A stretch of DNA of 64,000 nt from Shouchella patagoniensis (lineage in GTDB: Bacteria; Bacillota; Bacilli; Bacillales; Bacillaceae_D), in the NCBI RefSeq assembly GCF_002019705.1, contig NZ_KV917377.1:3845938-3909937 (forward strand), read 5' to 3'. Below the pieces are notes generated by a model, which was not told where the DNA came from, made no database searches, and worked only from the letters and a program-made list of their open reading frames with translations. A program made the position numbers and the translations under genes. This document shows, piece by piece, positions 54,667 through 56,397 of the stretch (position 1 is its first letter; every line of letters begins with the position of its first letter).

Positions 54667-54705
54667 AAAGGGAGGAGAGCATCCTTATTGCTTTCCTCCC
54701 TTTAT
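54667..54705. terminator. Bidirectional terminator between ypbQ and the peptide gene
   Basis: GAAAGGGAGGAGAGC and GCTTTCCTCCCTTT arms with one mismatch end the two convergent units. Confidence 0.85.
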
Positions 54706-54708
54706 AAA

Positions 54709-54831
54709 TTATGTTTGCTCCGGTTTATTATTTTTAATGATTTCGTTATCTGTTAGATCTTCAAAAGATGGGAGACTGAAAGCTATTATAATGGCTGTAG
54801 CAATTACTGTTAACTTCCTTTTAATTTTCAT
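54709..54831 (-). CDS. Small exported peptide precursor, AimP/Phr-like
   Basis: A 40-codon gene starts 14 bp after the stop of the AimR-like receptor on the same strand. Its AAAGGGG ribosome site begins inside the receptor's stop codon. The product has a basic start (MKIKRKLTV), a hydrophobic core (IATAIIIAFSLP) and a polar tail (SFEDLTDNEIIKNNKPEQT). This is the plan of Phr, PapR and AimP pheromone precursors, whose C-terminal five to eight residues become the signal. The final residues KNNKPEQT would be the candidate. Known phage arbitrium peptides mostly end in Gly-Ala or Gly-Gly, so this one is atypical. Confidence 0.75.
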   Translation of the reverse strand: MKIKRKLTVIATAIIIAFSLPSFEDLTDNEIIKNNKPEQT

Positions 54832-54845
54832 AATAAATGTCCCCT

Positions 54846-55952
54846 TTAGATTAATTTTTTAATTTCTTTTTCAACAAACATGATCATATTTGTATATCCT
54901 TGAGCATTAAATTGTCTTATCGTATCAAATAACAAAGGAATGTTACTTAATGCTTTTGCCTTGTAAAATTGTGCATGTGCAGATAATTTTCCAGACGCTT
55001 CAATGCTCCTTATAACATCCAATGCTTTTTGATTTTGACCACGTACAATATACTGATGTGCTTGTTCATGATCCACTACACCTTCTAAATCAAATGTTTC
55101 ACCTAACATGTTTTTAGCAAAAGGAAAATAATTAGACTTAAGTTTATATACATAATCATTGTGATTGGCTTTTTGAGCATGAAAGATAGCTTTTTCATGT
55201 GCTTCCAAACTTCTTTTTTTGTCTTGAACAATATAAATATGACCTAGCCCATGATATGTTGTAGCTAAAAGAGCATCTGGTATTGATTCTATAACACTTG
55301 CTGCTAAGTAATAACTCTCTGCACTCTCATAATCCCCGGCACCAAAAAGGCTAGCATTCCCTCCTAACAGTGTAACTCGGGAAGCGAGTGCACTCTTGAA
55401 AAAACCACTTTCCATCTTCGAAAATTGAGTTCTAAATTGATCAATTAGAGGGGTAATATTTTTAATACCACCAATTCTGTCAAAATAGTTTAGCTGCGAA
55501 ATATCAATTTTCATACGAAGCTGTTCGTTGTAAACTATGTTATTTAATCCTCTTAAATGAATAATGCAGTTTTCTAGGTGTAAGTTTGTTCCCGATGAAG
55601 AGAGGAAGACTTCATAAACTTTTGTCCACTCTTCTAAAAGATCATCCCGCTTATGAGTATGCAATAGTTTTTTGAGTGTATCTGTTTGACTAAAAAGGTG
55701 AGCATACTCAAATGCATCCTGCACATGTCGGAGCTTTTTTACGTTAACGGCATACGTATTCATGAATGGAACATAGTCGTTAGGCAGTGCTTTTTTAATA
55801 GCTGTAAGTACTTGTTCAAATGAAAGATCAGGATGATTACGGGCAAGTTTAATCATAAACTCGTCTGTGATTTCTTCTTTCTTTAGGACACGGTTCAAAA
55901 TTGCGGTTGATGCCTCTACTCCAAGTTGAATTTTCAATCCCTCCTTTTCCAT
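54846..55952 (-). CDS. AimR-like (RRNPP) peptide-responsive regulator
   Basis: The 368-residue protein has a short N-terminal HTH-like part (VEASTAILNRVLKKEEITDE, LARNHPDLSFEQVLTAIKKA) and a TPR-like helical remainder. The segment YVPFMNTYAVNVKKLRHVQDAFEYA resembles the MKxYC...ALEYA hallmark of phage AimR receptors; Rap proteins lack such a DNA-binding part. In SPbeta-group phages AimR activates aimX until bound by the AimP peptide. No phage gene adjoins this copy. The annotated ATG lacks a good ribosome site, while AAAGGAGGG lies just inside the gene, so the start could be the TTG at codon 6 or nearby. Confidence 0.72.
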   Translation of the reverse strand: MEKEGLKIQLGVEASTAILNRVLKKEEITDEFMIKLARNHPDLSFEQVLTAIKKALPNDYVPFMNTYAVNVKKLRHVQDAFEYAHLFSQTDTLKKLLHTHKRDDLLEEWTKVYEVFLSSSGTNLHLENCIIHLRGLNNIVYNEQLRMKIDISQLNYFDRIGGIKNITPLIDQFRTQFSKMESGFFKSALASRVTLLGGNASLFGAGDYESAESYYLAASVIESIPDALLATTYHGLGHIYIVQDKKRSLEAHEKAIFHAQKANHNDYVYKLKSNYFPFAKNMLGETFDLEGVVDHEQAHQYIVRGQNQKALDVIRSIEASGKLSAHAQFYKAKALSNIPLLFDTIRQFNAQGYTNMIMFVEKEIKKLI

Positions 55953-56010
55953 TTATTTGCTTTCTATTCTTATCGTAATGGACAAAGTTACAATAATCAA
56001 CAAATATTTC

Positions 56011-56027
56011 GGAAAATTCTATTTTCC
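56011..56027. promoter_or_regulatory. 17-bp inverted repeat upstream of the AimR-like gene
   Basis: GGAAAAT, TCT, ATTTTCC is a perfect repeat 59-75 bp before the receptor gene, in the divergent region toward the exporter leader. It is a candidate operator of the receptor; this is inference. Confidence 0.35.
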
Positions 56028-56173: not shown

Positions 56174-56212
56174 GAATACAGCTTTTTACTTTCAGAGAAG
56201 GAGATGAGACAA

Positions 56213-56305
56213 ATGAAACACGTCATGATGGCAGCTGTACGGCTAAAACATAACTGTATACATGAAAAGTCTCGTCTGAATGTGGGCCGGTTGTTGGCTG
56301 TTTAA
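56213..56305 (+). CDS. Leader peptide upstream of the exporter genes (BmrB-like)
   Basis: A strong GAGAAGGAGATG ribosome site precedes this 30-codon frame, MKHVMMAAVRLKHNCIHEKS then RLNVGRLLAV. It ends about 50 bp before an intrinsic terminator, which in turn precedes the ABC genes. In B. subtilis, translation of the small bmrB frame controls read-through into bmrCD when ribosome-targeting antibiotics stall it. The arrangement here is equivalent, though the peptide sequence was not matched to BmrB. Confidence 0.6.
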   Translation: MKHVMMAAVRLKHNCIHEKSRLNVGRLLAV

Positions 56306-56337
56306 AATCTCTATGGGGCTTGTGAATTCAAACGCCC

Positions 56338-56397
56338 TTTGCACATACGTATATATAGACGTTGCGGCATTGCCGCGACGTCTTTTTTATGTGCAAA
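56338..56397 (+). terminator. Attenuator terminator in the bmrCD leader
   Basis: AGACGTTGCGGCA and TGCCGCGACGTCT (56357-56383) form a stem followed by TTTTTT. An outer stem, TTTGCACATA (56338-56347) with TATGTGCAAA (56388-56397), encloses it. Upstream GGGC/GCCC (56316-56319, 56334-56337) could form a competing hairpin. Confidence 0.75.

Follow-up and report, generated by a model that had tools for sequence, protein, structure and literature searches.

An AimR-family receptor that seems to lack a canonical helix-turn-helix, and its adjoining putative propeptide gene, in the chromosome of Shouchella patagoniensis

We analysed a window of 64,000 nucleotides from Shouchella patagoniensis (contig NZ_KV917377.1, positions 3,845,938 to 3,909,937), in which the gene for a tetratricopeptide repeat (TPR) receptor, protein P0001, adjoins a gene for a small propeptide with predicted secretion, so that the two form a pair of the RRNPPA type. 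The receptor has the family and the fold of AimR, the pair occupies a conserved place, receptor and peptide tail are both under purifying selection, and no helix-turn-helix (HTH) domain is recognisable. We lean, with confidence somewhat above even, towards a host-owned peptide quorum-sensing system derived from AimR, whose receptor would act through a protein partner in the manner of Rap. The genome carrying the window (4.6 Mb, G000) was studied within a sample of 13 genomes of the genus, five others of which hold a direct orthologue (95% identical in G008; 57-58% in G001, G006, G010 and G011). The features of the pair are as follows:

54846..55931, minus strand: AimR-family TPR receptor, 361 aa from a conserved AUU, or 368 aa from the ATG at 55952
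54709..54831, minus strand: putative propeptide gene of 40 codons with a signal-peptide-like start and the end NNKPEQT
54712..54753, minus strand: constrained last 14 propeptide codons, the likely seat of the mature signal (from substitution counts)
54841..54847, minus strand: ribosome site AAAGGGG of the propeptide gene (read directly and aligned across orthologues)

The receptor belongs to the AimR family

The sequence-only reading, an earlier note made from the letters of this DNA, had proposed an AimR-type receptor, and profile and fold searches bore this out. P0001 scored 99 bits against NCBIfam NF038310 (cut-off 70), 62.7 bits against Pfam PF22871 (cut-off 26.7) and 104.5 bits against PHROGs phrog_1728. 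The best PDB fold for its AF2 model (pLDDT 90) was AimR, as were all 15 PDB matches at E<=0.001, and the FM..YA...AFEYA segment reported earlier is present. P0001 is an AimR-family receptor. Membership in Rap, NprR or PlcR was rejected as unsupported by the profile and fold searches: the Pfam matches listed for P0001 up to E 10 do not include RapH_N, and the eight RapH_N places of G000, in seven loci, all lie away from the receptor. Matches to clostridial toxins by phmmer (E 0.01 to 0.07) were taken as chance, because a 45-member profile does not list them. The window genome contains two further relatives, which share 37% and 27% identity with the receptor; one more match, at E 0.09, was also attributed to chance.

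In one alignment, with gaps nearby, N199 and E296 of the receptor match the peptide-anchoring N202 and E300 of clade 2 receptors, and E296 is invariant in 45/45 aligned relatives. In the same alignment Q299 and R228 correspond to H295 and D226, and the residues reading the arginine of AimP are changed in the window receptor.

The adjoining gene looks like a propeptide gene

The frames of 368 codons (54846-55952) and 40 codons (54709-54831), both on the minus strand and 14 bp apart, were found as described, together with the signal-peptide-like start, a basic-plus-hydrophobic stretch, and the NNKPEQT tail. In all six orthologues the peptide gene adjoins the receptor, 14-16 nt past its end, with a convergent bpsB-like gene behind. 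The peptides end in NNKPEQT in two of them and in TQAKPGQLL in four, KP(E/G)Q being common to all, which agrees with the earlier remark that the end is unlike the known xxxxGA/GG types. The ribosome site AAAGGGG, proposed as the gene's own, is present in two of the six; the other four use a different site. Neither outcome that would have refuted the sequence-only reading occurred: by HMM and by fold the receptor is not Rap, and none of the six orthologues lacks the adjoining small gene.

The substitution pattern supports translation of the small gene and places its constrained part at the C-terminus of the propeptide. Across five close pairs of peptide genes, all 12 changes in the last 14 codons were synonymous, against nine synonymous and nine amino-acid changes in the remaining codons (Fisher p 0.004). 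Two pairs came from the orthologue group of the window (tail: four synonymous, no amino-acid changes; rest: three and three), and the fifth was HTH-bearing with both copies in one genome; L060 versus L062 and L063 were run but left uncounted on account of shared history. Judged by these counts, the 40-codon gene looks like a true propeptide gene, and its last 14 codons are likely to hold the mature signal.

The pair has a conserved chromosomal place and is under purifying selection

In six of the 13 genomes the pair sits between bpsB- and bmrC-like genes (the names bpsA, bpsB/ypbQ, bmrC and bmrD follow B. subtilis). One flank consists in all six of MerR/TipA-like, type III polyketide synthase (bpsA) and ICMT (bpsB/ypbQ) genes, convergent with the pair, and the other of bmrC/bmrD-like ABC genes. 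In four of the six, receptor and bmrC are separated by a transporter gene (two scanned and assigned to MFS, two by similarity). The arrangement without a receptor occurs in G012 (bpsA-bpsB-bmrC-bmrD) and in G004 (bpsA and bmrC-bmrD). In G008 the bpsA-like gene is broken into two frames (L059:7214-8364), by mutation or by an error of the draft assembly.

The ratio of amino-acid-changing to synonymous substitution rates (dN/dS) of the receptor was 0.09 between the window and G008, over 336 codons; three further close pairs gave 0.09, 0.12 and 0.18. The PHROGs matches (E<=1e-5) of ten neighbouring genes comprised an ABC transporter, a kinase, a transposase and several families of unknown function, with no phage structural, packaging or lysis family among them, in line with the earlier statement that no phage gene is within reach. 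P0001 had no match in the phage collection or the plasmid collection. Judged by its place and neighbours, the pair is, as the sequence-only reading had supposed, host-owned; it is chromosomal and not borne by a phage or mobile element.

The receptor seems to have lost a canonical HTH and probably starts at AUU

The HTH half of the "HTH plus TPR" protein described earlier did not hold up. The Pfam, NCBIfam and PHROGs matches listed for P0001 up to E 10 include no HTH family. The N-terminal model has two helices, helix 2 missing, compared with three in an HTH-bearing paralogue from the same genome modelled by the same method. When the two kinds of N-terminus were compared profile to profile, the match was weak (probability 2%, 3% identity). 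The models suggest that the canonical HTH has been lost.

The ATG start assumed earlier also had to be given up. In the G008 orthologue this ATG is out of frame, with a stop after five codons, and the G008 frame has no ATG, GTG or TTG between the upstream stop and codon 26. None of these three codons provides a start that fits all six orthologues, which share AAGGAGG and then an in-frame ATT:

55938..55946, minus strand: Shine-Dalgarno AAGGAGGGA of the receptor, with 7-8 nt from AAGGAGG to AUU in six orthologues

Codons 1-26 are probably translated, because they differ between G008 and the window by seven synonymous changes and one amino-acid change. The receptor probably starts, as far as alignment can tell, at the conserved AUU at 55931 (codon 55929-55931), which leaves only 37 residues before the first shared TPR helix. 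AUU starts are rare in bacteria (infC, pcnB), and such a start, if true, would make translation of the receptor weak or controlled by initiation factor IF3.

AimR-type receptors and Rap proteins across the genus

All 13 genomes contained at least one receptor relative at E<=1e-5. Of 51 frames taken by profile from the fetched regions, 50 had at least 300 aa, and a 250-aa fragment in G004 was left out. Peptide genes were called by a fixed filter that required 30-65 codons, a ribosome site, a start first basic and then hydrophobic, a polar tail, and a start position between -40 and +100 nt relative to the receptor stop. It was passed after 37 of these 50 genes and after 1 of 221 controls, which were other genes of at least 200 codons from the same loci; the Fisher value of 2e-33 overstates the evidence, because the rows are related. 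At the sole control match (L042:6806-7891) the large gene encodes 361 aa and the peptide tail repeats PKHDFE, and for this reason the two may be a receptor pair too.

Counted by eye, GP or GG occurred in the last 18 residues in 25 of 31 other peptide rows, and DPG in two more; the window pair is an exception. In L041, L045, L048, L050 and L073 the end motif is present in two or three copies within the peptide gene; that downstream of L041:4828-5952, for example, has GP(I/T)NPVD twice. At L066:4232-5359 two tandem propeptide-like genes lie 3' of one receptor and have related ends (GNPPVNVGS and GGPPVHVGT).

In a maximum-likelihood tree of 60 rows, midpoint-rooted, the window protein and its orthologues fell into a 29-row clade (100/100) that includes the 37% identical second copy of the same genome and 15 copies from G004, the latter forming their own branch (98/96). 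This clade is nested in a 38-row group without a canonical HTH (98/97). Eleven of the 12 HTH-bearing rows of the genus group apart (100/99), with L046 outside; the places of some reference sequences are unsure because of very long branches. The HTH-bearing paralogue of the window genome (L041, at 1.42 Mb) matches 14 phage records at E<=1e-3. Among six HTH-bearing loci scanned, FtsK-like genes were found at L041 and L048, a repressor at L041 and a transposase at L046, and at L043, L049 and L056 the phage families among the neighbours were all of unknown function. In g5, another genus of the family, five receptors (L082, L084, L085, L087 and L088), each about 330 aa long, start after the HTH region, which suggests a second loss; the peptide genes of L082 and L088 have duplicated ends, PEGSDRVKS and VPSDNIRIN. 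Ten neighbour proteins of other chromosomal pairs revealed no common target; they included products of PhoP/PhoR-like and methyltransferase genes, and three had no Pfam match.

RapH_N was found in 11 of the 13 genomes, with 5 to 11 places per genome, some of them fragmented, and not in G004 or G007. A full Rap protein used as query gave no match in these two genomes and 8, 8 and 11 matches in three controls. G004 (2.6 Mb, 99% complete) had 16 AimR-type matches, and 11 of its 15 full frames had a peptide gene (G004 rows: L033-L035, L037, L039, L071-L075, L077 and L078). Spo0A was kept in all 13 genomes, G004 included. The absence of Rap and the many AimR-type receptors of G004 are a correlation in one genome, which may or may not reflect replacement. 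Only tentatively can it be proposed that a receptor lineage of viral type turned, by loss of helix 2 and in parallel to Rap, from a transcription factor into a switch that binds proteins, and so gave rise to a second, Rap-like class of quorum-sensing proteins of the host, which spread over chromosomes of the genus and replaced all Rap-Phr pairs in that Spo0A-bearing genome.

How the receptor may act

Since the HTH appears to be lost, the receptor is most likely no longer a transcription factor and may instead bind a partner. Beyond sequence, fold and selection, we infer the following steps. The 40-aa propeptide would be exported by the general secretion route and then cut; a short C-terminal piece around KPEQT would re-enter through the oligopeptide permease and sit in the TPR groove; and the resulting change of shape would make the receptor hold or release a protein partner in the way of Rap.

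The best-surviving alternative, possible but clearly less probable, is that in a host-owned pair a degenerate N-terminal domain still lets the receptor bind DNA and regulate its own promoter, for instance through a palindrome upstream of that promoter:

55972..56000, minus strand: possible receptor promoter TTGATT-17-TACGAT, a conserved block in six orthologues that scores under the threshold of the promoter scan
56011..56027, minus strand: 17-bp palindrome GGAAAATAGAATTTTCC, upstream of the possible promoter, in two of six orthologues

Several observations weigh against partner binding by an HTH-less receptor. Divergent HTHs escape profiles: the DNA binder SPbeta AimR scored 0.7 bits, and the window protein 1.2, against an HTH profile built without SPbeta AimR and its close relative. 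Because SPbeta AimR was missed, this test alone is not decisive, and its low score leaves room for a degenerate DNA-binding fold. The alignments of NF038310 and phrog_1728 to P0001 begin at profile positions 17 and 22, so that these profiles still recognise part of the N-terminal region; by fold, some AimR chains can be aligned as far as residues 7-12, and a remnant of the old HTH domain may thus be retained. Residues 1-20 of the model are of low confidence (pLDDT 35-57). The palindrome, the sole such site genome-wide at <=1 mismatch, could be an operator. Of the 38 HTH-less rows, nine had no peptide gene by the filter, as had four of the 12 HTH-bearing ones. Finally, G007, although without Rap, has a single AimR relative, and replacement of Rap is for that reason not general.

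DNA binding is opposed by the missing helix 2, by the short stretch ahead of the first TPR helix and by the absence of the palindrome from four of six orthologues. A scan for operators (exact 6-bp arms, spacer 23-27) found no AimR-type operator with a 25-bp spacer upstream of the receptor in the six orthologues; the only upstream match was in G000 and G008, where two arms 23 bp apart lie close to the start site. The DNA-binding role proposed by the sequence-only reading found no support, the HTH motif apparently being missing. One target suggested there, the leader region of bmrCD, was rejected as a conserved role, because the transporter gene intervening in four of six orthologues means that the divergent arrangement of receptor and bmrC is not conserved. 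Promoter control by the receptor, of bmrCD or otherwise, is not favoured.

It is unlikely that the small gene encodes a secreted or membrane peptide with some other job, antimicrobial or regulatory for example, while the receptor listens to other peptides. Secretion and receptor binding of the peptide are predictions, and the Phr-like peptides encoded beside Rap genes of the same genome (at four of the seven RapH_N loci, by the filter) end differently. The latter also means that the same signal was not seen to come from elsewhere in the genome, and a signal shared with the Rap-Phr pairs of G000 was rejected, no Phr-like frame ending like the window peptide. Such an unrelated job is, however, hard to square with the frequency of peptide genes after AimR-type genes compared with controls, with the concentration of constraint in the last 14 codons, or with the repeated end motifs of five rows, which are like those of some pheromone genes. 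It is hardly credible that the pair is a remnant in decay, left behind by a lost prophage or integrative element: phages and mobile elements commonly carry members of the family and the L041 paralogue lies beside FtsK-like and repressor genes, but decay (if not a remote phage origin of the family) is contradicted by the low dN/dS, by intact frames in six orthologues, by the constrained peptide tail and by the same place in lineages with 57% receptor identity.

Other features of the locus

The propeptide gene is followed at once by a hairpin and, directly past it, the convergent ypbQ/bpsB-like gene, so that, as noted earlier, there is no room for aimX:

54667..54703, minus strand: hairpin, probably a terminator, between the propeptide gene and bpsB (folding compared with shuffles)

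The hairpin folds with -20.7 kcal/mol (z -4.94; 0 of 200 shuffles equally good); those of L060 and L061 at the equivalent position are weaker against shuffles (z about -2). No arm pair of an AimR operator, which at aimX loci has 6-bp arms and a 25-bp spacer, was found in the last 260 aligned bases of G000 and G008. In the other four orthologues the only pairs there were A/T-rich, had spacers of 24 and 26 bp and lay at the end of the receptor and the start of the peptide. Ahead of the bmrC-like gene, at 56204-56383, a 33-codon frame is followed by a terminator-like hairpin (12 pairs, 56357-56383), an arrangement that resembles an attenuator of the bmrB type; the scan that gave this hairpin had, overall, no excess of terminator-like sites over shuffles.

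Comparison with known systems

The window pair shares with AimR-AimP of SPbeta-like phages (L101, L103) the receptor family, the fold, a peptide gene directly after the receptor and, in the one alignment made, two peptide-anchoring residues. It differs in being chromosomal and syntenic, in having no aimX site and no recognisable HTH, and in a peptide end without RGA/GA, the residues reading the AimP arginine not being kept. The NF038310 equivalog is named for lysis-lysogeny receptors, and P0001 can hardly be one.

Chromosomal systems of Alkalihalobacilli within AimR are already in print: a figure legend in PMC12700828 (Extended Data Fig. 10) places them, as candidate RRNPP subfamily 21, on a branch within AimR in a sequence tree. 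We liken them to the window pair by that description only; the accessible parts of PMC12700828 mention neither HTH loss, peptides, gene place nor an expansion in Rap-less genomes. The detector behind this subfamily is that of PMC10075063, which gives 34 clusters (accessible part). Within the open-licence PMC literature nothing was found on AimR together with Shouchella or on RRNPP together with clausii.

With Rap-Phr (clan B of RRNPPA) the pair has in common a chromosomal receptor that seems to lack an HTH, a small peptide with predicted secretion and several copies per genome. According to the accessible text of PMC12700828, HTH loss founded Rap and subfamily 17, and in that of PMC9765709 Rap proteins are the only HTH-less members. 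If the loss proposed here is true, it would independently repeat the former step, and a feature called unique to Rap would recur.

The pair also resembles the eavesdroppers of PMC9765709, in as much as they are AimR relatives outside prophages. In the part of that study available, a propeptide candidate was reported for 11% of AimR genes outside prophages, phage-plasmids and plasmids, compared with 29 of 38 HTH-less relatives here, by our filter. Many receptors of the genus have a peptide gene of their own and so need not eavesdrop on phages. HTH loss, if true, would thus partly answer the question raised there about the role of AimR relatives outside prophages, and a genus with 50 receptor genes, 37 of them with a peptide gene, and two Rap-less genomes makes this question testable.
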